A stretch of DNA of 64,000 bases from Betaproteobacteria bacterium HGW-Betaproteobacteria-9 (lineage in GTDB: Bacteria > Pseudomonadota > Gammaproteobacteria > Burkholderiales > Burkholderiaceae_C), in NCBI GenBank assembly GCA_002842215.1, contig PHCC01000003.1:186001-250000 (forward strand), written 5' to 3'. Position numbers and translations under genes: made by a program. Under the pieces are notes generated by a model. The model had not been told where the DNA came from. It made no database searches and was given only the letters and a program-made list of their open reading frames with translations. Positions 33,511 to 47,662 of the stretch are shown here, piece by piece. The stretch's first letter is position 1, and every line of letters begins with the position of its first letter.

Positions 33511-33867
33511 ATGTCGCCCGCTTTTGAACCCATCCACCACCTGGCTCAGCAGAGCCGGGCCCATGCCCCGGTCCTGCTGGCCGGGGCCGACGACCCGCAT
33601 GCCGAGCTGCTGGCCATGGTCTGGGGCCCGCGTTTCGACCGCCAGCACGCGCTCGATCTCTGGGCCCGGCTCTCGCAGCAACAACCCGCCGAGGCCTTGC
33701 CGCTGCTGCCCGCGCTGATCTCGGCGGCCGACCGCTTTGACGCCCTCGGTGTGCCGGTGCAGCACCGGCTGCGCCGCCTGATCGTGCGACACCACGCAGC
33801 GACGGAGCCCCGGACTGTCACCGCCCGTGACAGGACGCCAGGGGGCCGTGTTCAGCTGTCAGAATGA
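33511..33867 (+). CDS. Hypothetical protein before response regulator
   Basis: A 118-residue open frame with plausible codon use, sitting between the Spy-like gene and the response regulator. I see no known domain. It contains a helical, Leu/Ala-rich central part (ELLAMVWGPRFDRQHALDLW, LPLLPALISAADRFDALG) and a basic C-terminal half. Its stop codon is 4 nt before the regulator's start, which would suit translational coupling. The ribosome site is weak, so it could be a chance frame. Confidence 0.45.
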   Translation: MSPAFEPIHHLAQQSRAHAPVLLAGADDPHAELLAMVWGPRFDRQHALDLWARLSQQQPAEALPLLPALISAADRFDALGVPVQHRLRRLIVRHHAATEPRTVTARDRTPGGRVQLSE

Positions 33868-33871
33868 GTTC

Positions 33872-34576
33872 ATGCACCGCATCCTGCTCATCGACGACGA
33901 CGAACAGCTCGGTCCTCCGCTGGCCACGTACTTCCAGCGTTTCGAGCTGCAACTCACCCACGCTTTTCGGCCCAGCGACGGACTGGCCCGTTTGCGCGCG
34001 GGGAGCTTCGACGCCGCCATCCTCGACGTGATGCTGCCCGAGATGGACGGCTTCGAGCTCTGCCGCACCATCCGCAAGGAGAGCGACATCCCCATCGTCA
34101 TGCTCACCGCGCGCGGCGAGGTGATGGACCGCGTGGTCGGCCTGGAAATCGGTGCCGACGATTACCTGCCGAAGCCTTTCGAGCCGCGTGAACTCGTGGC
34201 GCGCCTGCAGACCGTGCTGCGCCGCCGCCGGGCCAGCCTGGCGCCGCTGAACGCCACGCCGGACTCCGCCAACGGTGAACTCCGCTTCGAGGGCCTCACG
34301 CTCGACCCCGCGCGCCGCAGCGTCGTGCGCGAAGGGCAAGACGTCGAACTCACCGGCACCGAATTCGAACTGCTGCTGTTGCTGGCCCGCGAGCCCGGCA
34401 AGGTGTTCAGCCGCGACGACATCCTCAACCAGCTGCGCGGCCATGAGGCCGAGCTGTACACCCGCGCGGTGGACATTGTGGTCAGCCGCCTGCGCAAGAA
34501 GCTGGAGCCGCTGGACTGCATCAAGACCCTGCGCAACGCCGGCTACTCGCTCGCGCTGCGGCGCCTGACCCAATGA
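33872..34576 (+). CDS. OmpR/CpxR-family response regulator
   Basis: A 234-residue two-domain regulator. The receiver shows the acidic pocket LLIDDDEQ, phospho-acceptor Asp52 in AILDVMLPEMDG, the Thr in VMLTARGE and the Lys in YLPKPFEPRE. The C-terminal winged helix has ELTGTEFELLLLLAREPGKV and the recognition helix RAVDIVVSRLRKKLE. It pairs with the kinase starting 10 nt later. The start MHRILLIDDDE is clear from the family. A CpxR-like role in cell-envelope stress is inferred from the Spy-like neighbour. Confidence 0.92.
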   Translation: MHRILLIDDDEQLGPPLATYFQRFELQLTHAFRPSDGLARLRAGSFDAAILDVMLPEMDGFELCRTIRKESDIPIVMLTARGEVMDRVVGLEIGADDYLPKPFEPRELVARLQTVLRRRRASLAPLNATPDSANGELRFEGLTLDPARRSVVREGQDVELTGTEFELLLLLAREPGKVFSRDDILNQLRGHEAELYTRAVDIVVSRLRKKLEPLDCIKTLRNAGYSLALRRLTQ

Positions 34577-34586
34577 GCAGCTCTCC

Positions 34587-35981
34587 ATGACCGACGCTCG
34601 AGCCAAGAAACTGTCTTCGTGGAAGCGCGCCAAACACCGCATCGCGCACTCCATCAAGCTGCGCATGGTGCTGGTGTTCCTGCTGCTCGCGGCGGGCATG
34701 ACCTTCGTGTTTTTCACCGGCGCGCAGAAGGCGTTTTCCATGGGCTGGCGCGAAGCCGCGCGCCCGCTGCTGATGGACTACGTGGACCGCATCGCCGCCG
34801 AGATCACGAACGGCGGACAGCCCAGCGTGGAGCGCGCCCTGGCCGTCACCGAGCGCCTGCCACTCACCGTGCGCATCGCAGGACCGCAGGTGAACTGGGC
34901 CTCGCACCCCGGTCAGGCCGAGTCGGACTGGATGCGCGACAAACCTGATGACAGCGGGCCGCGCAACGGTGACAAGAACGGCGAAAAATGGGGCAACGGC
35001 AAAGACTGGAACGGCATCCTGCAGCGCGACACCGCCGACGGGCACACCATTCAGTTCGGTATCAATGACGAGGTGTTCGTGCGCCGCCCGCGCCTGATCG
35101 GCTACGCGCTCACCTCGTTGCTCGTGCTCACGCTGCTGGCCTGGCTCTACGTGCGCCGTCTGCTCAAGCCGCTGGACGCCATCGGCGAAGGCGCTCGCCG
35201 CTTCGGTGCGGGCGACTTCAGCCAGCCCATACCCGAGCGCTGCCTGCACGGTCCCGACGAACTGGGCGAACTTGCCGCCACCATCAACACCATGGGCCAG
35301 GACATCCGGCAGATGCTTGACGCCAAGCGCGCGCTGCTGCTCGCCATCAGCCACGAGCTGCGCAGTCCACTCACCCGCGCGCGGCTCAACACCGAACTGC
35401 TGCCCGAAACGGCCGAGGTCAGCCCGCAGCGCGAAGCCCTGTTGCGCGACCTGCAAGAAATGGCCCGCCTCATCACCGACCTGCTGGCGAGCGAGCGCCT
35501 GGCCGCCAACCACGCCGCGCTGCAACGCGAACCGGTGGCGCTGGAGGTGCTGGCGCGCGAGGTCATTGGCGAGCTGCAGACCCGCCACCCCGAGGCCGCA
35601 CGCACCGCACTGCACGCCGCGCCCGACCTGCCCACCTTGCAACTCGACCCGGCGCGCATGCGCCTGCTGCTGCGCAACCTGCTCGACAATGCGCTGCGCC
35701 ACAGCGCGGGTGCGCCGCTGCCGCCCGAACTGCACCTGAGCGCCGAAGGGCAGGGCATCCAGATCGAGGTGCGCGACCACGGCCCCGGTGTGCCCGACGA
35801 CCAGCTTCCCCAGCTGGCCGAACCCTTCTTCCGTCCCGACACCGCGCGTACCCGTGCGCAGGGCGGCGTGGGCCTGGGGCTGTATCTGTGCAAGCTGGTG
35901 GCGCAGGCGCACGGCGGCACGTTTGCGGTGCGCAATGCGTTGCCCGGGCTGGCTGTGCGGGTGGTGCTGCCGCCGCGCTGA
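34587..35981 (+). CDS. Sensor histidine kinase (CpxA/RstB-like)
   Basis: A 464-residue membrane kinase with two transmembrane helices (about residues 25-45 and 170-190) flanking a periplasmic domain with a Gly/Asn/Lys-rich stretch (SGPRNGDKNGEKWGNGKDW). A HAMP linker follows. The H-box is LLAISHELRSPLTRARLN, the N-box LLRNLLDNALRHS, and G-boxes DHGPGVPDD and GVGLGLYLCKLV. It should phosphorylate the adjacent regulator. It is last in the Spy-like/regulator/kinase unit and converges with the dienelactone hydrolase-like gene. Confidence 0.92.
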   Translation: MTDARAKKLSSWKRAKHRIAHSIKLRMVLVFLLLAAGMTFVFFTGAQKAFSMGWREAARPLLMDYVDRIAAEITNGGQPSVERALAVTERLPLTVRIAGPQVNWASHPGQAESDWMRDKPDDSGPRNGDKNGEKWGNGKDWNGILQRDTADGHTIQFGINDEVFVRRPRLIGYALTSLLVLTLLAWLYVRRLLKPLDAIGEGARRFGAGDFSQPIPERCLHGPDELGELAATINTMGQDIRQMLDAKRALLLAISHELRSPLTRARLNTELLPETAEVSPQREALLRDLQEMARLITDLLASERLAANHAALQREPVALEVLAREVIGELQTRHPEAARTALHAAPDLPTLQLDPARMRLLLRNLLDNALRHSAGAPLPPELHLSAEGQGIQIEVRDHGPGVPDDQLPQLAEPFFRPDTARTRAQGGVGLGLYLCKLVAQAHGGTFAVRNALPGLAVRVVLPPR

Positions 35982-35992
35982 CGGCTGGAAAC

Positions 35993-36889
35993 CTACTTCT
36001 GCGCCACCCGGGTGTCTTCGCTGCCAGGGTGGCCGCTGAGCCCCGCGAAGAACGCGAGCATGCGGTCCCGGCTGTCGTCGGCGGCCTGAGCATTCCGGCC
36101 CACCAGCTTGCCCAGGTAGCGCTGGAGCACGATGTCCAGGTCGAAGGAATGGGCCGCTTCGGGGTAGACGATCAGCTGCAGGTTGGCACCGGTGGAGCGC
36201 ACGCCTTCGCATTCGCTGGCAGGCACCCAGTCGTCCTGGCCTCCGCCAAACACCAGCAGCGGTGTTTTCAGTTGCACGGAGCGGCGTTCGAAGGCGCCGC
36301 ACCAGGGGTAGAAGGCCACGACCCCGCGAAAGCCGTCGGTGGCTCCGGCCTGGCCGTGCGGACCATCGCCCTTGGCCACCTTGATCGCCACGCTGCCGCC
36401 GTTGCTCTGGCCCATGAGGAACACGCTGCCACGGTCGACAAAGGGCTGTGCCTGCAGGTAGCGCAACGCATCGTGGGCGTCGTAGGTGCGGTAGTCGCGG
36501 GCATCCGCCAGCCGGTCGAAGCTCTCGCACACCTTGCCGCCGCCCTGGTTGCGGGGCCCAAAACTGTCGAGGTTGAGCACCACGAAGCCCTTGCTCACCA
36601 GATGTTCGGCGTAACGGTTCATGGTGTAGCGAACCGGCGCTTGCCAGCCACCGCAGCCATGCATCAGCACCACCGCCGGAAAGGGGCCATCGCCTTCGGG
36701 CCGCGAGAGTTCGGCCCGCAGGCTGACCTTGTTCGCGCTGTGACCCTGTGTGGCTTCAAAGGTGACTCTTTCGCTGGCCTGCGCCGAGTGGGCCAGCAGC
36801 ACGCCGAGGATCAGCTTGCCCAGCCACAGTGGCAACCGGCGTGGCCGGGCGTGTTCAGCGAGACCGCTCGTGTGTTTCAAATCGTTCAA
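35993..36889 (-). CDS. Dienelactone hydrolase-family alpha/beta hydrolase
   Basis: A 298-residue alpha/beta hydrolase with an N-terminal hydrophobic segment (LPLWLGKLILGVLLAHSAQA) that looks like a signal peptide, so it may be exported. The oxyanion stretch is PAVVLMHGCGGW, the nucleophile elbow FLMGQSNGGSVAI (Ser), the acid lies in VFGGGQDDWVPASE and the His in PEAAHSFDLDI. Ser in place of the Cys of classical dienelactone hydrolase suggests an esterase. No operon partner; it converges with the kinase gene. Confidence 0.82.
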   Translation of the reverse strand: MNDLKHTSGLAEHARPRRLPLWLGKLILGVLLAHSAQASERVTFEATQGHSANKVSLRAELSRPEGDGPFPAVVLMHGCGGWQAPVRYTMNRYAEHLVSKGFVVLNLDSFGPRNQGGGKVCESFDRLADARDYRTYDAHDALRYLQAQPFVDRGSVFLMGQSNGGSVAIKVAKGDGPHGQAGATDGFRGVVAFYPWCGAFERRSVQLKTPLLVFGGGQDDWVPASECEGVRSTGANLQLIVYPEAAHSFDLDIVLQRYLGKLVGRNAQAADDSRDRMLAFFAGLSGHPGSEDTRVAQK

Positions 36890-37217
36890 CCCTGTGGCGT
36901 TGTGTGACGGGGCAACCCGTCAACGGGTCGATCCAAGGTCTGGATTTTCGGATACCCCCCTCAGCACCCGCAAGGTGCAACCGGCCAGAAGGTGCTCATT
37001 CCAGCGCGAACGGTGTGCCCGCCCGCCGACTGCCGGCCGCAGCGAAACCAATGGTTTTAGTCAACAGAACATTGCGTCTGCTCAATGCTTGAAGCGGGTG
37101 TATTGATTAACATAAATTTACAAATACAAAGGCACTCTGGAAGCTGGAAAAGGCGAGGCATTTCGTACTCAGGGATGAGCGTGTGCGCGCCTTGAGGTTT
37201 ATCAAGAAGGTGCTTTC
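36890..37217. other. Intergenic region upstream of the PqqD/ATP-grasp operon
   Basis: No convincing gene, including no obvious short precursor-peptide gene, in these 328 bases. The notable feature is an AT-rich tract around 37102-37130 (TTGATTAACA followed by TTTACAAATAC) inside GC-rich sequence, a likely promoter for the operon. The first ribosome site, AAGAAGG, sits near 37204. Confidence 0.5.
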
Positions 37218-37544
37218 ATGAACAAAAAAAACGGGCAGGCGACGGATGCCGCGGATCCCGGTCCAACCCTGTCAAAGGGCCCGCGGCGGTTGCAATTCTT
37301 TGGCGAAGAATTCGTGCTCGATACGGTGTCGGGTCTGTTCTACCGGCTCACGCCGGCGGCCCATCTCGTGCTGCAGGCCCATGAACAGGGTCTGCAGAGT
37401 CAGCAGTTCCCAGGGCTTCTGAAGCAGCACTACGGCATTGACCCGGCGAGCGCTGCGCGCGATGTCGAGTTGCTGCTCAACCAGATGGTCTCACTGGGGT
37501 TGCTGGGCCCGCAGTCGGAGCGGCTCCAGGAAGGCCGGGCATGA
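37218..37544 (+). CDS. PqqD-like peptide-binding (RRE) protein
   Basis: A 108-residue protein whose residues 25-97 fit the PqqD/RiPP-recognition-element fold: FGEEFVLDTVSGLFYRLTPA, AAHLVLQAHEQGLQSQQFP, then DVELLLNQMVSLGLL. PqqD proteins bind a leader or carrier peptide and present it to a modifying enzyme. The N-terminal 20 residues are polar and flexible. The gene overlaps the ATP-grasp start by 4 nt (ATGA), the first of three such overlaps. No precursor peptide gene was found beside it, so what it binds is open. Confidence 0.75.
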   Translation: MNKKNGQATDAADPGPTLSKGPRRLQFFGEEFVLDTVSGLFYRLTPAAHLVLQAHEQGLQSQQFPGLLKQHYGIDPASAARDVELLLNQMVSLGLLGPQSERLQEGRA

Positions 37545-38695
37545 GCGCAGCACCGGGCCGTTTCCAAGCAAGCTCGCACCGCAGCCCGCAGGGTGAAGGT
37601 ACGCCCATGAGCGCGATCCAACGCAGCGTGGCGGTCACCGGCATGCACCGCGGGGAGAACCCCCAACCCGGAGCTTCCGTTGTCGCCAGCTTGCGCCGCC
37701 AGTTTCCCGGGCTGCGCACGGTCGGTCTTTCCTACGATCCGTTGGAGAGCAGCCTGTACGGGCAGGGCAGCGATCACCCCGATGCGGCCTACCTGATCCC
37801 CTTCCCCGGAGCGGGTGCGCGGGCTTTGCTCGACCGGCTGGACATGATCCGCCAGAGTGAAGACATCGGCTACATCATTCCCTGCCTCGATTCCGAGATC
37901 GAAAACTACCTGCAGATCGAAGAGCAACTGAAGGAACGTGGCATCCGCTGCATCCTGCCCACCCGCCAGTCCTTCGAGGACCGGCACAAGGCTTCGCTCT
38001 ACGACTTCTGTCTGCGCAACGACATCCCGAGTCCGGTCACCCTCATCGCCCACGACGCGCTGGCGGTGGAGCGTTGTGCGGCCGAGGTCGGCTACCCGGT
38101 CTATGTGAAGGGGCGGCTGTACCACGCCGAACTGGTTCACTCGCGCGAGGGACTGGTGGCCGGGTACGACGAGATCGTGCAGACCTGGGGCTGGCCCGTG
38201 ATGGTGCAGGAAACCCTCAGCGGTGAGGAGTACGACGTGACGGGCGTGGGCGATGGCGAGGGCGGCATCGTGCAAAGCTGTTCCATCCGCAAGCTCCTGC
38301 GCACTTCTCACGGCAAGGGTTTCGCTGGCATCGTCGTGCAGGACCCGGACATGGATGCGTTGTCCGAACGGATCATCCGCGCGCTGCGCTGGAACGGCCC
38401 TTTCGAACTCGAGTTCATCAAGGTGCCGGGCCGTCCGCATGCGCTGATGGAGATCAACCCGCGCTTTCCGGCCTGGATCGACTTCCCCTCGCAGATCGGG
38501 TGCAACCTGCCCGCGCTGCTGTTCGAGCGCCTGCTCGGGCATGCCGTCAAACCACCACCGGCCTGCCGGCCGGGCCAGATGTTCGTGCGCCACAGCGTGG
38601 ATCTCGCGGGTGATTTCGCCGACTTTGCGGCCATGGCCAGCAGCGGCGAACGCATCTTCCGGCCCCTACAGAAACCAGAACAGGTCACACCATGA
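37541..38695 (+). CDS. ATP-grasp ligase
   Basis: A 384-residue ATP-grasp enzyme related to carbamoyl-phosphate-synthase-type ligases. An N-terminal preATP-grasp Rossmann-like part (VAVTGMHRGENP, LIPFPGAGARALLDRL, IIPCLDSEIENYLQI) precedes the ATP-binding half (GYPVYVKGRLYHAELVHS, PVMVQETLSGEEYDVTG, and Mg-binding HALMEINPRFPAW). The family joins a carboxylate to an amine or thiol through an acyl-phosphate. The start overlaps the PqqD-like gene; an in-frame ATG at 37607 with GAAGG is an alternative. The next gene, a PLP decarboxylase, overlaps its stop by 4 nt. Substrate unknown. Confidence 0.85.
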   Translation: MSAAPGRFQASSHRSPQGEGTPMSAIQRSVAVTGMHRGENPQPGASVVASLRRQFPGLRTVGLSYDPLESSLYGQGSDHPDAAYLIPFPGAGARALLDRLDMIRQSEDIGYIIPCLDSEIENYLQIEEQLKERGIRCILPTRQSFEDRHKASLYDFCLRNDIPSPVTLIAHDALAVERCAAEVGYPVYVKGRLYHAELVHSREGLVAGYDEIVQTWGWPVMVQETLSGEEYDVTGVGDGEGGIVQSCSIRKLLRTSHGKGFAGIVVQDPDMDALSERIIRALRWNGPFELEFIKVPGRPHALMEINPRFPAWIDFPSQIGCNLPALLFERLLGHAVKPPPACRPGQMFVRHSVDLAGDFADFAAMASSGERIFRPLQKPEQVTP

Positions 38696-40116
38696 ACAAC
38701 GAATACCTTCCGCCCGTCATCAGCGCCGAGCTGGGTCGGCACGCGCTGGATGCCGCTGCTGATCGCAATCTCTACGCCCGTGGCACGCGTACGCCCACCC
38801 TGTTCGAAATCGACGGCATTCCTGTGGCCGCGCTGGTGCAGCAGTTCGGCTCGCCGCTGTTCGTGTTCTCCGAGCACGACCTGCGTGAAAAAGCCCGCCA
38901 CCTGCGGGCGGCCTTCACCAGCCGCTACGAGAACACCCGCTTTGCCTGGTCCTACAAGACCAACTACCTCTCGGCCATTTGCCAGGTGTTCCACGATGAA
39001 GGCTGGATGGCCGAGGTGGTTTCGGATTTCGAATACCAGAAGGCCCGCAAGCTCGGCATGGCGGGCAAGGACATCGTTTTCAACGGACCGTACAAGCCAC
39101 GCCCGATCCTGGAACAGGCCGTTCGCGAGCGGGCGCTGATCCAGATCGACAACTGGGACGAACTCGGCCTCATCGAAGAGCTGACCCGAGACATCGATGA
39201 ACCGCTGGAGGTGGGCATCCGCGTCTGGCTCGATGCCGGCATCCGGCCGATCTGGTCGAAGTTCGGTTTTGCCGTGGAAAACGGCGAGGCGGCGCGCGCC
39301 GCCCACCGCATCCAGGCGAACCCGAAGCTCTCACTGCACACGCTGCACACGCACATCGGCACCTACATCCTCGACCCCAATGCCTACCGCGTGGCCGTCA
39401 CCAAACTGCTGGCCCTGCGCGAGCAGCTCCATGCCGCACAACAGCACTGGGTGCCCTGCGTCAACCTGGGTGGAGGCTTTCCATCGAACAGCCTGTTGCA
39501 CGGCATGACCGGGCCCGCCGAACGGGTGGTGCCGCCCATCGATGCCTACGCCGAGGCCATCACCGAGGTGCTCAACCGCCTGCCTCCCGGGCAGCGGCCG
39601 CAACTGCGCTTCGAAAGCGGGCGCCACCTGGTGGACGAGGCCGGGTACCTGCTCACCTCCGTGGTGGCCGTCAAGGGCATCCGGCACCCCATGACCGAGC
39701 AGGCCGGTCTGCGCGACTACAAGGAACAGCTGCTCGTGGGCGAGGCTGCCCGCACCAGCTACGTCATGGACGCCGGCATCAACCTGCTCTACACCGCGGC
39801 CTGGTACCAGATGGACATACGGCCCTCGCGCGCCGTCGAAGCGCCGCCGTCGCTGTCGCGCCTGTACGGACCCCTTTGCATGGCGATCGATGTGCTTCGT
39901 TACAGCATCGATCTGCCGCCCTTGAAGGTGGGTGACATCCTCACCCTGCACCCGGTGGGGGCCTACAACGTGTCGCAGGCCATGCAGTTCATCGACTACC
40001 GCCCGGCGGTGGTGCTCATCGGCATGGATGGCAAGCCCGAACTCATCCGTGCGCACGAGGTGCTGCACGATGTGGACGGCCCCGAGCGCATGCCCGCTCA
40101 CCTGGTGCGCCCGTGA
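38692..40116 (+). CDS. Fold-type III PLP-dependent decarboxylase (diaminopimelate/ornithine decarboxylase-like)
   Basis: A 474-residue enzyme of the Orn/DAP/Arg decarboxylase 2 family. The PLP lysine is in FAWSYKTNYLSAICQVFHDE; the phosphate-binding glycine loop is VNLGGGFPSNS; EAARTSYVMDAGIN and the cross-subunit motif YGPLCMAIDVLRYS (GPxCxxxD) are in the C-terminal barrel. LHTLHTHIGTYILD matches the HxGS-type segment of the family with Thr at the end. It is longer than DapDC by about 50 residues. Lying between an ATP-grasp gene and a transporter-peptidase gene, it is probably not the housekeeping LysA. Confidence 0.85.
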   Translation: MNNEYLPPVISAELGRHALDAAADRNLYARGTRTPTLFEIDGIPVAALVQQFGSPLFVFSEHDLREKARHLRAAFTSRYENTRFAWSYKTNYLSAICQVFHDEGWMAEVVSDFEYQKARKLGMAGKDIVFNGPYKPRPILEQAVRERALIQIDNWDELGLIEELTRDIDEPLEVGIRVWLDAGIRPIWSKFGFAVENGEAARAAHRIQANPKLSLHTLHTHIGTYILDPNAYRVAVTKLLALREQLHAAQQHWVPCVNLGGGFPSNSLLHGMTGPAERVVPPIDAYAEAITEVLNRLPPGQRPQLRFESGRHLVDEAGYLLTSVVAVKGIRHPMTEQAGLRDYKEQLLVGEAARTSYVMDAGINLLYTAAWYQMDIRPSRAVEAPPSLSRLYGPLCMAIDVLRYSIDLPPLKVGDILTLHPVGAYNVSQAMQFIDYRPAVVLIGMDGKPELIRAHEVLHDVDGPERMPAHLVRP

Positions 40117-42353
40117 CCAAAGCGCAATCGAGCCCCATCGCCGGACGCTCCGACGGCCCCGAAGTCGAAGCGCCCACGGGCGCCACGGTCCAGGCCCGGC
40201 GCGTGTCGGTGCGGGGGGTGGTCGAGGCTTTCGGGCAGTCGCTGGGCGGCGTCTTTTTCATCGAACAGCCCTGGCTGGGGCTGCTGCTCTGGGGCGCCTT
40301 GCTGAGCCGCCCGGCGCTGGCCCTGTTTGCGCTGTGCGGCCTGCTGTCGGGTGTGCTGGTCGGGGGGATCCTGCGTGTCCAGGATGCGCCGGGCCTGGGT
40401 GGCGGCGTCAAGGCCAATGCACTGCTGACGGCGGTGGTCACCGGCTGGATGATCGGCCCCATGGGCATGCCCTGGGCGCAGCAGCTGGTGATGGCCGCCG
40501 CCGCCGCGATGGCCGCAGCCTTGATGACCGCAGCCCTCATGCGGGTGCTGGCCCGCAGCTTCCTGCCGGTGCTGCTCTGGGGCTACTGCCTGATCGCGGC
40601 GATGTTGTTCAGCATCTGCCCGGATTGCACCGTGCGCGCCGCCTACACCATGCCCGTCTGGCCAATGCCGACCGATGCTCTGGGCTGGCTCGGCAGCTTC
40701 CTGCGTTCCATGGCGTCGCTCATGTATTCGCCGCATGCCGTGGCCGGCGTGCTGGTATGCATCGCCGTGCTGCTGTGGTCGCGGGCCATGTTCCTGGCCG
40801 GCCTGGCGGGCTGGCTCGGCGGGGTGTTGCTGTCGCTGGGTTTCCAGCGGCTGGGGCTGAGCTTTGTCTGGCTGCCGCTGTCGTACAACTATTTCATTGC
40901 CGGCATGGCGCTGGGTGCGGTGATCTTCCTGCCGGGGCGGCTGAGCCTGCCGGTGGCCGCTGTGGCCGGTGTACTCACCGCCTTCTTCGGGCTGGTGCTG
41001 CAGTACGTGCTGGGTTGGTCGGCCACGAGCTACCTGCCCGTGTCATCGGCGCTGGTCATCTGGGTCGGCATGGGCGCACTCACGCTCGCTGGCGAGCGGG
41101 CCATCGTGGAGCGCAACGCCATGCCGGGCGAGCCGCCCGAACAGCGCTGGTGGATCGAGGCCTACTGGCGCGCGCGCTACGGCCGCCCGGTGCCGCTGTT
41201 TGCCGTGCCCGTGGCCGGCGAACTGCTGATTGCCCAGGGCTTTGAGGGGCGCATCAGCCACACCGGCATCTACCGCCATGCGCTGGACTTCCAGCGTTCC
41301 CCCGCGGCCGAGGCGGTGGGCGGTTCGATCTGGGGCGCTCCCGTCACGGCGCCGGCGCCCGGCATCATCGAGCGGGCGCACGACGGCGTGGTGGACAACC
41401 CGCTGGGCGTGAGCAACTACGCCGAAAAGTGGGGCAACCATGTGGTGATCCGCCTCGACGCTGGCGGCTGGGCCATGCTCGCGCACCTGCAGCAGGGCAC
41501 GGTGGCGGTTGTGCCGGGGGCCCGGGTTGAGACCGGCAGCTACCTCGGCCGCGTGGGCAATTCCGGTCGCTCGCCGGTGCCCCACCTGCACCTGCAGTTG
41601 CAGGGCTCGCCCGAACCCGGTGCGGCCACGCGCCCGTTCCGGCTCGCCAACTATTTCACCGCCGAGGCACCGGCCGCCGCACTGACGCGCTGGCACGCCT
41701 CGGCCGTTCCCCCCGAGGGCGACGTGCTGGCCCAGGCGCAGGCCAATCCGGTGGTCTACAGCACCCTGGTCGGCATGGCCCCGGGCACCGCCGTGTGGAC
41801 CAGCGAGGTGCAGGGCGACATTCCGCGTGCGTTCAACCCCGGGCCGGCTCACGTGCAACAACTCCAGGTGCGCATCGACAGCCTGGGTGAGCAGGTGCTG
41901 GACGCTGGCAAACAGGGACGCCTGGTGCTGGCACTCGATCCCGATGCGCTGCGTGTCATGGCGCTGGACGATGCGAGCGCACCGTTGTTGCGCCTGCTCG
42001 CGATGGGGGCCGTTTCCATGCCGTATGCGGCACGCGTGGGCACCCGCTGGAGCGACGTCCCACCGGTGGTGCCCGGTGGCGGCTGGTGGCGGCCCTGGGC
42101 GCTGCTGCTGGCGCCCTACCGTCCCCATCCGTTTCCCGTCGTCCATGGCATCTGCACCGCCATCGCGGAGCCTGGCCCGAGCGGTTCGGTGCTGGAGTGG
42201 GTGAGCACGCTGCAGGCCCCCGGTGCGTCCGGGCCGCACAAGCTCACGTGCCAGTTTGCGCCTCTGCGAGGGCCTGTGAAGCTGCAGGCCGAATTTGCGG
42301 CCGGGGTCCTCACCTTCCGCCTCTTGTCCTTTGAGCCCGCGACCCCCGGTTGA
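40113..42353 (+). CDS. Urea transporter-like membrane domain fused to M23 peptidase domain
   Basis: A 746-residue two-part protein starting at GTG, overlapping the decarboxylase stop (GTGA). Residues 35-320 hold about ten hydrophobic helices with urea-transporter character: an N-terminal FGQSLGGVFFIEQPWLGLLL segment, GVKANALLTAVVTGWMIGP and, in the second half, SLMYSPHAVAGVLVCIAVLL. After about residue 370 comes an M23/LytM-like domain with HTGIYRHALDF, a WGNHVVIRLD strand and the zinc motif PHLHLQLQG. The last 220 residues have no recognised domain. The peptidase part should lie outside the inner membrane, so the protein links small-molecule passage to peptide or cell-wall cleavage. Confidence 0.72.
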   Translation: MTKAQSSPIAGRSDGPEVEAPTGATVQARRVSVRGVVEAFGQSLGGVFFIEQPWLGLLLWGALLSRPALALFALCGLLSGVLVGGILRVQDAPGLGGGVKANALLTAVVTGWMIGPMGMPWAQQLVMAAAAAMAAALMTAALMRVLARSFLPVLLWGYCLIAAMLFSICPDCTVRAAYTMPVWPMPTDALGWLGSFLRSMASLMYSPHAVAGVLVCIAVLLWSRAMFLAGLAGWLGGVLLSLGFQRLGLSFVWLPLSYNYFIAGMALGAVIFLPGRLSLPVAAVAGVLTAFFGLVLQYVLGWSATSYLPVSSALVIWVGMGALTLAGERAIVERNAMPGEPPEQRWWIEAYWRARYGRPVPLFAVPVAGELLIAQGFEGRISHTGIYRHALDFQRSPAAEAVGGSIWGAPVTAPAPGIIERAHDGVVDNPLGVSNYAEKWGNHVVIRLDAGGWAMLAHLQQGTVAVVPGARVETGSYLGRVGNSGRSPVPHLHLQLQGSPEPGAATRPFRLANYFTAEAPAAALTRWHASAVPPEGDVLAQAQANPVVYSTLVGMAPGTAVWTSEVQGDIPRAFNPGPAHVQQLQVRIDSLGEQVLDAGKQGRLVLALDPDALRVMALDDASAPLLRLLAMGAVSMPYAARVGTRWSDVPPVVPGGGWWRPWALLLAPYRPHPFPVVHGICTAIAEPGPSGSVLEWVSTLQAPGASGPHKLTCQFAPLRGPVKLQAEFAAGVLTFRLLSFEPATPG

Positions 42354-42410
42354 CGGGGGTGACGGAGCAGCGAGATTCTGTTTTTTGTGTCCAACCTGAA
42401 GGAGATCATG

Positions 42411-44012
42411 ATGATGAAACTGGGAAAAAAATCCGCATTGACGCTGGCCACTCTGGCCATGCCCCTGGTGCTCACGGGTTGCGCCAACGTGCTGCGCGTG
42501 GCACCCCACGCCGAGCTCAAGGTCTTTGATCCGGTGTGGACCACCGCGTACATCACGCGCAACCACGGCTACCTGATCTACGACACCCTGTTCGCGATGG
42601 ACGAGAACTTCGAGCCCCAGCCGCAGATGGTGGACAAGTGGACCGTTTCGCCCGACAACAAAACTTGGACCTTCACCCTGCGCGAAGGCCTGAAATGGCA
42701 CGATGGCACCGCCGTGACGGCCGAGGACTGCGTGGCCTCGTTGCAGCGCTGGAGCAAACGCGACGGCGCGGGTCAGCAGCTGTTCCGTGATGTCGAGAGC
42801 CTCACCGCCCAGGACGCCCGCAGCTTCACCCTGAAACTGCGCGAGCCCAACGGCCAGGTGCTGCAGACCCTGGCCAAGGTGTCGGCCAACGTGCCGTTCA
42901 TGATGCCCAAGGCGGTCGCTGCAACCGACCCCTTCACGCCGATCACCAGCAAGATCGGGTCTGGCCCCTACCGGTACAGCTGGGCGCAGTCGAGGCCCTT
43001 CGTCAAGACGGTCTACCTCAAGAACAACAACTACGTGCCGCGTGCGGAGCCGCTGTCGATGACGGCGGGCAGCAAGGCGGGCCAGGCCGACCGCATCGAG
43101 TGGATCTACCACGACACGCAGGAAGACATGGCCCGTTCGCTGATCCGGGGTAAGGTGGACTACGTCGAGTCGCCCTCGGCCCGGGTGCTGCCGCTGTTCG
43201 AAGGCAAGAAGAAGGTCGTGGTGAACACCACCGATCCGCTGGGCAACATCGCCATGGCGCGCTTCAACATGTTGCAGCCACCGTTTGACAACGTGGCCGT
43301 GCGCCGGGCCGCCCTCATGGTGATGCAGCAGGAGGACTACATGCGCGCGGCGCTGGGGGACCCCAAGTACTGGCGCACCTGCTACTCCATCTTCCCCTGC
43401 GGCACCCCTTTGTCCAACGAGGCCGGCAGTGCCGCGCTGAAAGCCCCGGGCCTGGATGCGGCCCGGAAGGCCTTGCAGGACGCCAGGTACGACGGCACGC
43501 CGGTCGTGATCCTCAACCCGGTGGACAGCCCGGTGATCTCGGCCCTCACGCAGGTCACGGCCGAGAAGCTGCGCGCCATCGGCATGACGGTGCAGGTGCA
43601 GGACATGCCGTGGGCCGAGCTCACGCAGCGCCGCGTGAACCGCGGGCCGGTGAAAGACGGGGGTTGGAGCATGTTCCACACCTGGTGGCTTGCCGGTGAC
43701 CTGCTCGACCCCTCGGCCATCGCCTATTCGGGCGATCCCGAGACCGGCTGGTTCGGCTGGCTCAAAGACGCCGAGCTCGAAACCCAGCGCGCCGCCTTCA
43801 GCCGGGCCATGACGTCCGCCGACCGCAAGGCCGCGGCCGAGAAGGTGCAGCAGCGCATCGTTGACGACGCGGCTGTGGGCATTCTCGGGCAGTTCTTCGA
43901 GCCTGTTGCCTACAGCAGCAAGATCAGCGGCATCACCTCGCCCATCCAGTTCTACTGGCAGATGTGGACCGAGTCGCCTTTCATGCGCTCGCCCGCGCAG
44001 CCCGCACGCTGA
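42411..44012 (+). CDS. Family-5 (peptide/nickel type) solute-binding lipoprotein
   Basis: A 533-residue extracytoplasmic binding protein with a lipoprotein signal (lipobox LTGC about 24 residues in). The SBP_bac_5 signature is present: GYLIYDTLFAMDENFEPQPQ, WTFTLREGLKWHDGTAVTAE, and MARFNMLQPPFDNVAVRRA. Three ATGs follow AAGGAG in frame; I chose the middle one, 6 nt from the site. It comes 57 nt after the urea-transporter/M23 gene, but no DppBCDF-type permease or ATPase genes follow, so it must use a distant ABC system or act as a receptor. Confidence 0.88.
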   Translation: MMKLGKKSALTLATLAMPLVLTGCANVLRVAPHAELKVFDPVWTTAYITRNHGYLIYDTLFAMDENFEPQPQMVDKWTVSPDNKTWTFTLREGLKWHDGTAVTAEDCVASLQRWSKRDGAGQQLFRDVESLTAQDARSFTLKLREPNGQVLQTLAKVSANVPFMMPKAVAATDPFTPITSKIGSGPYRYSWAQSRPFVKTVYLKNNNYVPRAEPLSMTAGSKAGQADRIEWIYHDTQEDMARSLIRGKVDYVESPSARVLPLFEGKKKVVVNTTDPLGNIAMARFNMLQPPFDNVAVRRAALMVMQQEDYMRAALGDPKYWRTCYSIFPCGTPLSNEAGSAALKAPGLDAARKALQDARYDGTPVVILNPVDSPVISALTQVTAEKLRAIGMTVQVQDMPWAELTQRRVNRGPVKDGGWSMFHTWWLAGDLLDPSAIAYSGDPETGWFGWLKDAELETQRAAFSRAMTSADRKAAAEKVQQRIVDDAAVGILGQFFEPVAYSSKISGITSPIQFYWQMWTESPFMRSPAQPAR

Positions 44013-44020
44013 GACGAAAC

Positions 44021-44105
44021 ACCCCCCGCGCCGCTTCGCGTCACCTCACTCAAGGGGGAGGCACTGGCCTTCCGGCAAAGCCGGCCCGGCGGTGCCCTGG
44101 GTTGG
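44021..44105 (+). repeat. Dispersed GC-rich intergenic repeat, copy 3
   Basis: Third copy of the family at 2668-2754 and 25757-25841, with a CCCCCCGCGCCGC start, a CTCAAGGGGG segment and a CCGGCAAAGCCGG hairpin. It sits just after the solute-binding lipoprotein gene. Confidence 0.65.
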
Positions 44106-44278
44106 ACCGTTTCATGCGGCGCGGGTGGCGCTCCGGCACCATGGAAAGCTGACATGGAGTGGGCGGCGCCGACCGCCCGCAAGCGGGTCTCGGTGGCCCT
44201 GCCGTGACCCGTACCCCGGGTTTCCCGGACTTGTCTCGGGTCATGGTCGGCGGACCCGGGCTGTGCGATGCTGCTGAC

Positions 44279-46078
44279 ATGAACATGCCCACGCTCCCCG
44301 GCTTCGCCACCGCGCCCACGCGCTTCCTGTTTTTCACCGGCAAGGGCGGCGTCGGCAAGACCTCGCTGTCCACCGCCACCGCCATCGCGCTGGCCGACGC
44401 CGGCCAGCGTGTGCTGCTGGTCAGCACGGACGCAGCGTCCAACCTCGACGAGATGCTCGGCGTTCCACTGTCCAACCGGCCGGTGCCCGTGCCCGGTGTG
44501 CTGGAGTTGCAGATGCTCAACATCGACCCCGACACCGCCGCCGAGGCCTACCGCCAGCGTGTGCTCGCACAGCTCGAAGCCGGTGCAACCGACGAAGAGC
44601 GCAGCACCGTGCGTGAACAGCTCTCGGGCGCCTGCACCACCGAGATCGCCGCCTTCGACGAGTTCGCCGCGCTGCTGGCGGGCGAGGGCATTGACGGTGG
44701 CTACGACCACGTGGTCTTCGACACCGCACCCACCGGCCACACCCTGCGCCTGCTGAGCCTGCCCAAGGCCTGGACCGGCTTCCTCGCTGGCAACGACCGC
44801 GGTGCCTCCTGCCTCGGCCCGCACTCGGGTCTGAAGATGCAGGAAGCGCGCTTCAACGCCGCGCTGCGAGCGCTGAGCGACCCCGCGCTCACCACCGTGG
44901 TGCTCGTCACCCGGCCCGACCCGCGCCCCATGCAGGAGGCCGCGCGCACCGCCGAAGAACTGCGCCAGCTCGGCCTGGCCAACCAGCGCCTGGCCGTCAA
45001 CGGTGTGTTCCACGCCATCAGCGCCAGCGACCACATCGCCAACGCCATCGAAGCGCTGGGCCGCCAGGCCCTGAATGAGATGCCCGACGCACTCGCCCGC
45101 CTGCCTCGCGACGAGGTGCCTTTGCGCGCCTTCGACACCGTGGGCCTGCCCGCGCTGCGGGCGCTGTTGCAAGGTGGCGATGTGCTTGCACCTGTGCCCG
45201 CATCGGCAGCCCCCGTGCTGCCCGCCGAGCCGCTGTCTCGCATGGCCGACGAGCTCGCCGCCGTCGGCCACGGCCTCATCATGGTCATGGGCAAAGGCGG
45301 CGTGGGCAAGACCACCATCGCCGCCGCGCTCGCCGTGGGCCTGGTGCAGCGCGGCCACAGCGTGCACCTCACCACCACCGACCCGGCCGCCCACGTGGCC
45401 GACGCCTTGAACGGCAGTCTCCAGGGCCTCAAGGTCGGCCGCATCGACCCCAAGGCCGAGACCGCCGCCTACATCGCCAAGATCATGGCCACGCGCGGCA
45501 AGGCGCTGGACGAACAAGGCCAGGCCCTGCTGCTCGAGGACCTGCAGTCGCCCTGCACCGAAGAAGTGGCCGTGTTCCACGCCTTCAGCCGCGTCGTCAA
45601 CGAAGCGCGCAGCGCCTTCGTGGTGCTCGACACCGCGCCCACCGGCCACAGCCTGCTGCTGATGGACGCCACCGGCGCCTACCACCGCCAGATGATGCAG
45701 CAGTACGAAGGCAAGGCAGAGGGCAAAGGCCTGCACATCATCACGCCGCTCATGCGCCTGCAGGACGGCAGCATGACGCGCGTCATCATCGTCACCCTGC
45801 CCGAAGTCACCCCGGTCAGCCAGGCCGCCGCCCTGCAAGACGACCTGCGCCGCGCGAAGATCGAACCCTGGGCCTGGGTCATCAACAAAAGCATCGCCGC
45901 CACCGGCACGACCGACCCGCTGCTGCAGGCACGGCTGGCGGGGGAAATCCGGCAGACGGAGCGGATTGCGGGCGGGCTGGCGAAGCGGACGTTTGTGCTG
46001 CCTTGGTTGGCGGTGCCGCCGGTGGGGGTGCAGGCCTTGGGCGCATTGGGGACACCAGACTCAACCGTCGATACCTGA
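44279..46078 (+). CDS. ArsA-type anion-transport ATPase (two-domain)
   Basis: A 599-residue protein with two homologous ATPase halves. Each has a deviant Walker A (FFTGKGGVGKTSLSTATAIA near residue 19 and VMGKGGVGKTTIAAALAVGL in the second half) and a DTAPTGHT/DTAPTGHS switch (FDTAPTGHTLRLL, LDTAPTGHSLLLM). This is the ArsA/GET3 architecture, which in bacteria energises arsenite export with ArsB. No arsR, arsD, arsB or acr3 is nearby, so it may serve another partner. The start MNMPTLPGFATAP was chosen by family fit. A repeat lies upstream. Confidence 0.9.
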   Translation: MNMPTLPGFATAPTRFLFFTGKGGVGKTSLSTATAIALADAGQRVLLVSTDAASNLDEMLGVPLSNRPVPVPGVLELQMLNIDPDTAAEAYRQRVLAQLEAGATDEERSTVREQLSGACTTEIAAFDEFAALLAGEGIDGGYDHVVFDTAPTGHTLRLLSLPKAWTGFLAGNDRGASCLGPHSGLKMQEARFNAALRALSDPALTTVVLVTRPDPRPMQEAARTAEELRQLGLANQRLAVNGVFHAISASDHIANAIEALGRQALNEMPDALARLPRDEVPLRAFDTVGLPALRALLQGGDVLAPVPASAAPVLPAEPLSRMADELAAVGHGLIMVMGKGGVGKTTIAAALAVGLVQRGHSVHLTTTDPAAHVADALNGSLQGLKVGRIDPKAETAAYIAKIMATRGKALDEQGQALLLEDLQSPCTEEVAVFHAFSRVVNEARSAFVVLDTAPTGHSLLLMDATGAYHRQMMQQYEGKAEGKGLHIITPLMRLQDGSMTRVIIVTLPEVTPVSQAAALQDDLRRAKIEPWAWVINKSIAATGTTDPLLQARLAGEIRQTERIAGGLAKRTFVLPWLAVPPVGVQALGALGTPDSTVDT

Positions 46079-46236
46079 TGATTTCATTGATTTTTCCGTG
46101 GAAATAGGGAGATTCTGGTTTCACACGGAAAAGGGGATGCTTCCCCGCGAGTTGCTCAGCAAGGGAGCTCAATTCGGTTCTCGGACGCTGTTCAGCCTTC
46201 CTGATGAGGCATGTCGCACAGAGCGAAAGAGACAGC

Positions 46237-46265
46237 TTGCCAAGCTCGGATCTGTGTTTTATATT
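46237..46265 (+). promoter_or_regulatory. Sigma-70 promoter of the HTH/nucleotidyltransferase operon
   Basis: TTGCCA, exactly 17 bp, then TATATT, both close to consensus, about 30 nt before the start codon. The -10 box runs into the palindrome at 46263-46293. Confidence 0.7.
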
Positions 46266-46293
46266 CTGTATTCGTGATTTGCGAATACAGAAT
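46263..46293. promoter_or_regulatory. Perfect 12-bp inverted repeat, candidate autorepressor operator
   Basis: ATTCTGTATTCG and its exact complement CGAATACAGAAT are separated by 7 nt. The site covers the end of the -10 box and the transcription start and ends 3 nt before the start codon of a winged-helix protein gene. No T run follows, so it is an operator rather than a terminator. Confidence 0.75.
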
Positions 46294-46296
46294 GAA

Positions 46297-46980
46297 ATGC
46301 AGCTAAAGCCCCAAGATTTCCTGGTCGCCCTCAAGCTCGTGGCTTGGGGTGATCAGCGCTGGACGTATGCGCGCCTGGCGCAGGAGCTGGGTTTGAGCGC
46401 GTCAGAGGCGCATGCCTCGGTGAAGCGGGGTTTGTTGTCTGGGTTGCTCTTGCAGAACCGTGCGCCAACGGCGTCGCTTGCGGACGCTGCCGGTGCGGGA
46501 GCTCAGGCGCTCCAGGAGCCGCAGGGTATTTATCGGATCACGCGCAAGCGGGTGCGCAGAAGTGCGGTACCCGCAGAAGAGGCCGGTCCGCCGGACAACC
46601 CGGTGCGGGTTCATGCCCAGGCGCTGGCGGAATTCGCCTTGCACGGAGCCAAGTACGCGTTTCCCGGTGTGCGCCTGCCGCTGGCGGTGGGGGTGCCCAC
46701 GAGCCACAGCGCGCCGGCCTTTGCTGGCGTGTTCGCACCGGGCAGCACAGATTTCGTCTGGCCACATCCGAACGGTTCGGTGCGTGGCATTGGGGTGGAG
46801 CCGCTGCATCCTTCGGTGCCGTTTGCGGCCATGCAGGACGCGAAGCTGTATGAGATGCTGGCCCTTTTCGATGCCCTGCGCGTGGGCAAGGCGCGCGAGC
46901 GGGGCATGGCGATGGAGCGGCTGCTGGCCCTGATTGACCCGAGCGCGCCCACGTCGCAAAAGGAGGCGCCCCGTGGCTGA
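46297..46980 (+). CDS. Winged-helix DNA-binding protein, putative antitoxin/autorepressor
   Basis: A 227-residue protein. The N-terminal 70 residues look like a winged helix (ALKLVAWGDQRWTYARLAQE, LGLSASEAHASVKRGLLSG). The middle, residues 90-125, is variable and basic, and the C-terminal part (ALAEFALHGAKYAFPGVRLP, SVPFAAMQDAKLYEMLALFD) is an unrecognised domain that may contact the partner. The start is set by an ATG directly after a perfect palindrome, which it probably binds. The partner nucleotidyltransferase gene overlaps its 3' end by 8 nt. The organisation resembles an AbiE-type type IV toxin-antitoxin pair. Confidence 0.72.
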   Translation: MQLKPQDFLVALKLVAWGDQRWTYARLAQELGLSASEAHASVKRGLLSGLLLQNRAPTASLADAAGAGAQALQEPQGIYRITRKRVRRSAVPAEEAGPPDNPVRVHAQALAEFALHGAKYAFPGVRLPLAVGVPTSHSAPAFAGVFAPGSTDFVWPHPNGSVRGIGVEPLHPSVPFAAMQDAKLYEMLALFDALRVGKARERGMAMERLLALIDPSAPTSQKEAPRG

Positions 46981-47662
46981 CCCGAACCTCGCGTTGTTGA
47001 TGGGCATGGCGCGCGCGATGGGGTCGCTGTGCGAGCAGGTGGTGTTCGTGGGCGGTTGCGCCACGGGCTTGCTGATCGACAACCCAGGTTTGATGGATGT
47101 GCGGCCCACCGAAGATGTGGACGCCATCGTGGAGGTGGCTTCGCTCGCCGGCTACCACCATCTGGCCGACCAACTGGCGCAACGCGGCTTCAAGCAGACC
47201 ATGGCAGACAACACGCCACCGTTTCGCTGGTTCTGGAGCCGCCTGCAGCTGGACCTGGTGCCGGTGGACGAAAAGGTGCTGGGGTTTGCCAATCGGTGGT
47301 ACCGCGCCGGCTTTGAGTCGGCGGAGCAGGCCAGCCTAGAAGATGGTTTGGTTCTGCGGCACCTGTCGGCGCCGTACTTCCTGGCCACGAAGTTCGAAGC
47401 TTTCAAAGACCGGGGCCGCGACGATGTGTTCGTGAGCCACGACCTGGAAGACATCCTGACCGTGGTGGAAGGGCGAGTAGCCCTTGTGCAAGAGGTCAAG
47501 GCCGCGCCCGACCATGTGCGGGTGCACATCGGTCAATCGGTGGCGGGCTTGTTGGCCTTGCCCGCGTTCAGCAACGCCTTGCCCGGCCTATTGAGCGATC
47601 CGGAACGAGAAGAGACCGTTTTCGCGCGCCTGAGCCAGATGTCCACGTTTGCCGCAACATGA
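46973..47662 (+). CDS. Nucleotidyltransferase, AbiEii/AbiGii toxin-like
   Basis: A 229-residue protein starting at GTG after an ideal AGGAGG site. The nucleotidyltransferase signature is VFVGGCATGLLID (Gly27-Gly28) followed by RPTEDVDAIVEV with the catalytic pair Asp48 and Asp50 in DxD. LSAPYFLATKFEAFKDRGRD and DLEDILTVVEG are also as in AbiEii/MenT-type enzymes. Such toxins add nucleotides to tRNA or other acceptors. It overlaps the upstream winged-helix gene, so production of the two proteins is coupled. Both host-defence and housekeeping roles are possible. Confidence 0.78.
   Translation: MADPNLALLMGMARAMGSLCEQVVFVGGCATGLLIDNPGLMDVRPTEDVDAIVEVASLAGYHHLADQLAQRGFKQTMADNTPPFRWFWSRLQLDLVPVDEKVLGFANRWYRAGFESAEQASLEDGLVLRHLSAPYFLATKFEAFKDRGRDDVFVSHDLEDILTVVEGRVALVQEVKAAPDHVRVHIGQSVAGLLALPAFSNALPGLLSDPEREETVFARLSQMSTFAAT

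Follow-up and report, generated by a model that had tools for sequence, protein, structure and literature searches.

Gene content of the locus

We analyzed a 64,000-nucleotide stretch of the genome of Betaproteobacteria bacterium HGW-Betaproteobacteria-9 (contig PHCC01000003.1, positions 186,001 to 250,000; the genome comprises 5.26 Mb in 57 contigs), hereafter the window, which harbors an operon of four core genes encoding a PqqD-like protein, an ATP-grasp ligase, a pyridoxal phosphate (PLP)-dependent decarboxylase, and a three-domain membrane protein. All four open reading frames (ORFs) lie on the + strand and are chained by successive 4-nt overlaps (ATGA, ATGA, and GTGA). Core gene 1 (37218..37544) encodes the small PqqD-like protein, placed in PF05402 at 27.5 bits (cutoff 23.4; the homolog at locus L074 scored 56.4 bits), and core gene 2 (37541..38695) the ligase (Pfam ATPgrasp_Ter, 35.3 bits, cutoff 29.1). 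Core gene 3 (38692..40116) encodes a PLP fold-III (alanine-racemase-fold) decarboxylase (Pfam Orn_Arg_deC_N, 85.6 bits; Orn_DAP_Arg_deC, 45.4 bits). Core gene 4 (40113..42353) encodes a 746-aa protein with matches to the urea transporter (UT) family (71.2 bits) and Peptidase_M23 (45.4 bits). An earlier note, made from the sequence alone, had described these overlaps and domain motifs, all of which proved real, and had termed the fourth product a membrane/M23 fusion. This too was borne out, with the membrane part now assigned to the UT fold (40194..41177, about aa 28 to 355), followed by the M23 endopeptidase domain (41178..41705, about aa 356 to 531) and a third domain (41709..42350, aa 533 to 746), a probable LolA-like half-barrel. 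The gene of a family-5 solute-binding lipoprotein (SBP5; 42387..44012, + strand; Pfam SBP_bac_5, 205.5 bits) starts 33 nt 3' of core gene 4; its product carries a lipobox, LTGC, recognized by eye, and its true start may be a later ATG. Scanning positions 35900 to 44600 for sigma-70 promoters returned zero matches, with 0.7 expected.

The core genes are inherited as a unit

To determine how widely the operon occurs, GTDB species genomes were scanned with a decarboxylase alignment, and the best 80 of at least 570 relatives were taken as the locus set (individual loci carry L numbers, genomes G numbers). Since the alignment had been seeded from loci already bearing a UT-M23 gene, co-occurrence within this set is biased. 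The ligase gene was directly upstream of the decarboxylase gene in 78 of the 80 loci, a PqqD-like gene preceded the ligase in 75, and a UT-M23 gene lay downstream in 70; all four core genes were found in order in 66. Among the 14 incomplete loci, eight were truncated by record ends (L053, L071, L078, with 1.2 kb left, L084, L088, L094, L115, and L124), the UT-M23 gene was upstream or on the opposite strand in L055, L063, and L073, and L075 and L091 were without one. The last of the 14, in an Aquificota record, was a solitary decarboxylase of the family, with no partner gene (L061:7920-9272). The 66 complete loci, mostly from metagenome-assembled genomes (MAGs), fell under 16 NCBI phylum labels, with one locus unlabeled, and all 80 under 17, again with one unlabeled; these labels were taken from MAG titles and may be wrong. 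Decarboxylase rows from a Mariprofundaceae MAG (L071) and a Sulfurimonas MAG (L072) were identical, and hence probably reflect a binning error. Named isolates among the loci were Chthoniobacter flavus Ellin428 and Thermodesulfatator autotrophicus S606.

Counts independent of adjacency were obtained by profile searches of 398 phylum genomes (E-value limits of 1e-80 for the decarboxylase and 1e-40 for the others), two of the three profiles deriving from the 80 loci. The decarboxylase was detected in 39 genomes, the ligase in 37, the UT-M23 protein in 36, and all three in 32, with each gene pair co-occurring at a Fisher p of 1.5e-37 or lower. Four of 40 UT-M23 genomes (G652, G590, G304, and G364) had been dropped for matching the UT part only or the M23 part only; partial rows from G433, G453, G478, and G526 were retained. 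Pairwise distances of five families were likewise correlated (rho 0.76 to 0.92 over 20 to 63 shared loci), the permutation maximum being at most 0.55 (200 permutations per pair). Remote relatives also came from searching 274 genomes of the class with the core gene 4 protein. In 11 of 14 regions examined from 13 other genomes, the ligase and decarboxylase genes lay beside the UT-M23 gene, and a PqqD-like gene preceded the ligase in 10 of the 11, the stretch of the remaining one (L036) ending at that point. L043 (decarboxylase only) and L044 were truncated by contig ends. The UT-M23 gene at L042:10989-13061 had neither ligase nor decarboxylase in the preceding 10.9 kb; by eye it sits behind heavy-metal-efflux-like genes, and its contig ends 154 nt later.

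These data show that the PqqD, ATP-grasp, decarboxylase, and UT-M23-LolA-like genes form one inherited unit and not a chance arrangement. The neighborhood comparison thus supports the earlier note's proposal of a co-occurring gene set for its first four members, but not for the fifth, the SBP5 lipoprotein.

Decarboxylase and ligase

In profile searches against PDB sequences, the nearest solved relative of the decarboxylase was the N-citrylornithine decarboxylase 7kh2 (315.6 bits), ahead of the best diaminopimelate decarboxylase (DAPDC; 238.9 bits) and the more distant BtrK (153.5 to 155 bits). The FslC/FigC NCBIfam model was matched at 200 bits, below its cutoff of 500, and the lysA model at 196 bits, below its cutoff of 298. 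A true lysA (415 bits) is encoded elsewhere in the source genome, which, together with the low score and the Thr or Ser replacing the DAPDC arginine (below), led us to reject LysA identity. The decarboxylase is accordingly not the orthologue of primary metabolism, a match that would have spoken against the earlier note's reading. The ligase, a CPSase-like ATP-grasp protein whose nearest solved chain is 2pn1 (E 8.6e-24), scored below the cutoff of every NCBIfam model matched.

Residues were mapped through alignments to solved relatives, using the window's row plus, from the 80 loci, 66 decarboxylase, 73 ATP-grasp, and 62 UT-M23 rows; members outside length limits were excluded, and L073, with its gene on the other strand, was omitted from the UT-M23 alignment. 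According to a comparison of these enzymes, DAPDC binds the distal carboxylate via R343, ODC/ADC-type (ornithine and arginine decarboxylase) enzymes rely on an Asp in the specificity helix, and the side-chain amine is bound by an Asp adjacent to the catalytic Cys; in FigC these residues give way to T327/T330/Y331 and M355, and docking places H357, R387, and perhaps N389 in contact with citrate (PMC7857480). In the family studied here, every catalytic residue checked is retained. The position of the specificity-helix Arg in DAPDC 1twi, which we equate with R343, holds Thr in 62 of 67 rows and Ser in five, Y372 is present in 65 of 67, and the residue following the catalytic Cys is M397 in all 67, as in FigC. 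The family thus resembles FigC/FslC of rhizoferrin synthesis in its nearest solved structure, in this Met, and in keeping the Thr and Tyr of the specificity helix. It differs in an invariant W371 in place of FigC T330 and in each of the citrate-contact positions, where H357 is replaced by I399 (67/67), R387 by Q429 (67/67), and N389 by M431 (61/67, otherwise Leu). With Thr or Ser, W371, Y372, and M397 in its pocket, the enzyme is unlikely to act on free DAP or on any free basic amino acid, and given I399, Q429, and M431, citrate is unlikely too. Judged from its residues, the pocket would suit an amino acid conjugated via its side chain, for which a conjugate supplied by the neighboring ligase is the simplest reading.

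In the ligase, K150, K190, E289, E291, E304, N306, and R308 were invariant in 74 of 74 rows, and we take K150, K190, E291, E304, and N306 to be the ATP- and Mg-binding residues of the ATP-grasp fold. Its pairing with a decarboxylase differs from that of FigC/FslC, whose partner is an NRPS-independent siderophore (NIS) synthetase, and instead recalls butirosin biosynthesis, where the ATP-grasp ligase BtrJ forms a conjugate that the fold-III enzyme BtrK then decarboxylates. In contrast to BtrJ/BtrK, no acyl-carrier gene was seen next to the core. In four loci the PqqD domain is the C-terminus of a 255- to 273-aa protein (L035:2505-3272, L037:6787-7608, L038:11640-12410, and L040:7535-8320), the N-terminal part of which looks like a TetR-type helix-turn-helix by eye; Pfam finds only PqqD in L035 and L038.

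The UT-M23-LolA-like protein and its putative envelope partners

An AlphaFold2 model of the core gene 4 protein (mean predicted local distance difference test score 89.4, predicted template modeling score 0.87) places the LolA-like half-barrel after the M23 domain; a profile of this C-terminal domain gave one chance-level match to PDB sequences (E 1.1). In the M23 domain, which is closest to peptidoglycan hydrolases, H383, D392, H458, H491, and H493, presumably the zinc ligands and catalytic His, were present in 63 of 63 rows. The UT domain belongs to the UT fold and departs from UT-A, UT-B, and dvUT both in its fusion to M23 and LolA-like domains and in its channel residues. Residues 46 and 202 of the window's protein align with the Gln of GQVMF and the Glu of GEVMF in dvUT; the first-repeat Gln is found in 5 of 63 rows and the second-repeat Glu in none. 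Of the 63 rows, 55 have Ser for the first-repeat Thr and 28 retain the second-repeat Thr; one Asn per repeat is invariant. The window's protein departs further, with G46, L155, S202, and P309. If the polar dvUT residues coordinate urea, as we assume for the dvUT structure, then core gene 4 encodes a UT fold with altered selectivity.

Clustering of neighboring genes produced one large cluster of tetratricopeptide repeat (TPR) and barrel proteins, drawn from 55 of the 80 loci. Using profiles, a TPR protein was found within 3 kb of the core in 53 loci, a barrel in 37, both in 34, and either in 56; for L048 and L051 this match comes from a UT-TPR gene only. Of the 24 loci with neither, 13 have less than 1.2 kb of sequence beyond the core, and the other 11, which include the cyanobacterial and Accumulibacter loci, have room. 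Two barrel proteins scanned had zero Pfam or NCBIfam matches, and the barrel profile matched PDB sequences only weakly (OmpA and two designed barrels, E 4e-4 to 0.2); 26 of 28 barrel rows end in Phe, Trp, or Tyr. Gene fusions linked the same parts. In a Planctomycetota locus, UT-M23-LolA-TPR-TPR forms a single 1085-aa ORF (L102:3165-6422), TPR and barrel are fused in L055, L079, L081, L087, and L101, and a second UT gene near the core has a TPR between its UT halves in L048:12549-14000, L049:13718-15229, L050:13705-15216, and L070:9929-11374. Pfam matches back the fusions in L102, L049, L070, and L048. The fusion of M23 and LolA-like domains to a membrane channel fold, along with the periplasmic TPR and outer-membrane barrel of many relatives, suggests an envelope-spanning complex, and the labeled phyla carrying the operon, which we take to be diderm, fit such an assembly. 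TPR scaffolds joined to outer-membrane barrels are known from the exporters PgaA, BcsC, and AlgK/AlgE, and the present proteins share this arrangement, TPR and barrel forming one protein in five loci. One difference is that no polysaccharide synthase was seen here.

Other neighbors were tallied for 121 of 244 genes (two of them UT genes), 25 of their 178 families being listed. Two-component genes were the commonest (seven response regulators and five HATPase proteins, with three for the next families). In the window, genes for an OmpR-type response regulator (33827..34576, + strand; Pfam) and a HAMP/HisKA sensor histidine kinase (34587..35981, + strand; Pfam) lie upstream, and both here and in nine relatives such regulator/kinase genes adjoin the core or are separated from it by one ORF (L035, L038, L040, L059, L100, L105, L110, L119, and L120; the L105 region covers the regulator only). 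No membrane glycosyltransferase or synthase, and no carrier domain, was among the 25 families listed.

Proposed function and alternatives

The best overall explanation, whose chances we put at about even, is a ligase/decarboxylase pathway to an amine coupled to a trans-envelope complex. The cytosolic ATP-grasp enzyme, aided by the PqqD-like adaptor, would join a carboxylate to an amino acid side chain, and the decarboxylase would strip the alpha-carboxyl group from this conjugate, leaving an amide-linked amine, in parallel to N-citrylornithine decarboxylase acting on another conjugate. The UT-fold domain may pass the product or anchor its path at the inner membrane, with the LolA-like domain binding a periplasmic ligand, the M23 domain perhaps opening peptidoglycan to let the complex through, and the TPR and barrel proteins possibly extending this path as far as the outer membrane. 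In some loci an OmpR/EnvZ-type pair is adjacent and may control the operon. We infer the reaction order, product type, envelope-spanning complex, direction of transport, and regulation from the genes and models described above; export, at a guess, is more likely than import. The earlier note's scheme of cleavage outside the cell and re-uptake found no support, with M23 and LolA-like domains fused to a channel fold and many relatives having a TPR and barrel, not a binding lipoprotein. Its suggestion of an amine built on a peptide or carrier stands in part: the ligase/decarboxylase pathway with PqqD is conserved and the pocket suits a side-chain conjugate, but the small-ORF search (below) leaves the peptide route unsupported.

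We propose more tentatively, and with slightly less than even confidence, that this is an undescribed trans-envelope system of diderms in at least 16 phyla, in which cytosolic PqqD, ATP-grasp, and decarboxylase proteins would make a new class of amide-linked amines and a repurposed UT fold, joined in one protein with a peptidoglycan hydrolase and a LolA-like carrier domain, would pass them via a periplasmic TPR protein to an outer-membrane barrel. Since the operon is kept together in two-membrane bacteria with 16 different phylum labels, its function must be a general one. If the proposal is true, it would reveal a new class of metabolites, show the urea-transporter fold in a new role, and add an envelope-spanning assembly of a new kind; the data also set apart a decarboxylase family easily misread as lysA, and named isolates among the carriers permit direct testing. 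As the earlier note had supposed, the pathway appears undescribed: a search of open PubMed Central (PMC) papers, with subscription papers and preprints outside its scope, found no description of the four-gene set, and term searches in the main text of a graspetide survey found no decarboxylase, urea transporter, or M23 protein (PMC8939145).

Among the alternatives, an unlikely one is a pathway like those for ribosomally synthesized and post-translationally modified peptides (RiPPs), in which the ATP-grasp enzyme and decarboxylase would act on a ribosomal peptide presented by the PqqD-like protein and M23 would cut the leader. In known RiPP pathways, PqqD domains serve to recognize the peptide, and of the NCBIfam models the lasso-peptide PqqD comes closest to the PqqD-like protein, although at scores below its cutoff of 70 (31.7 bits for the window's protein and 46.8 bits for that of L074). 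Against this, the M23 domain has peptidoglycan hydrolases as its closest relatives, and no exporter or other maturase is prominent in the 25 families listed, Radical_SAM occurring in three. A blastp-short search of 995 small ORFs near the 80 loci and in the window found no broadly shared ORF, though very short or remote peptide genes would escape it. The sole group spanning at least three loci (L048, L050, and L052) is confined to Verrucomicrobiota, and a precursor-peptide gene near the core was accordingly judged unlikely.

Equally doubtful is a role in the cell wall, in which an amine would be attached to peptidoglycan or derived from it, with the UT-M23-LolA protein serving for its insertion or release and TPR and barrel proteins linking the wall to the outer membrane. 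The invariant M23 active site, the presumably diderm phyla, and the recurring two-component genes would agree with such a role; wall chemistry alone, however, leaves the UT channel, the LolA-like domain, and the barrel unexplained, and no wall-synthesis family is among the 25 listed. Least probable is a metallophore or scavenging system, with a FigC-like decarboxylase making a chelator that is exported and retaken and SBP5 serving as the window's uptake receptor: the nearest solved decarboxylase is a rhizoferrin enzyme, SBP5 matches the NikA (64.9 bits) and CntA (46.3) models far under their cutoffs, its best match being GsiB (68.2), and L042, L076, and L097 lie, by eye, near metal-efflux genes, but the positions that bind citrate in FigC carry other residues, the 25 listed families include none for siderophores or metals, and SBP5 is limited to one lineage, with no ABC-permease match within the 64-kb window. 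A metal-efflux link was likewise set aside, such genes being near a few loci by eye but not among the recurring families listed.

The window's branch and flanking genes

The SBP5 lipoprotein is lineage specific and lies outside the conserved unit. A match was found in one of 96 loci searched (L128 and L129 are too short to show one), and besides the window SBP5 was present only in L047/L134 and L133; L134 (G773, from the same GTDB family as the window) appears to be the same record as the Rhodoferax locus L047. In the window, L047, L133, and L134, profiles detected no TPR or barrel match, and a search of the source genome for both found nothing beyond one generic TPR. In their place, this branch has SBP5 and a divergently oriented gene for a dienelactone-hydrolase-like enzyme (35993..36889, - strand; Pfam DLH; also in L047, L053, L133, and L134), neither of which was accepted as part of the system, both being confined to the window's branch. 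In a decarboxylase tree of 66 of the 80 loci, built by a quick method without bootstrap, the window and Rhodoferax L047 nested inside Verrucomicrobiota rows (fork values of 96 and, for the inner fork, 93). The decarboxylase gene is found in only 3 of 250 genomes of the window's family, the source genome included, and horizontal gain of the operon in this branch is likely.

Just 3' of the fifth gene, positions 44159 to 46078 encode a two-domain ArsA-type ATPase (719 bits to arsen_driv_ArsA). Such a gene also lies downstream of the operon in the same-genus locus L133, but no match was found in the 96 loci searched, and an arsenic link was discarded. Two overlapping ORFs follow at 46204 to 47662, one with a weak, subthreshold AsnC-type helix-turn-helix match and the other without a Pfam match and nucleotidyltransferase-like by eye, after which a PCC-domain protein starts at 47649.

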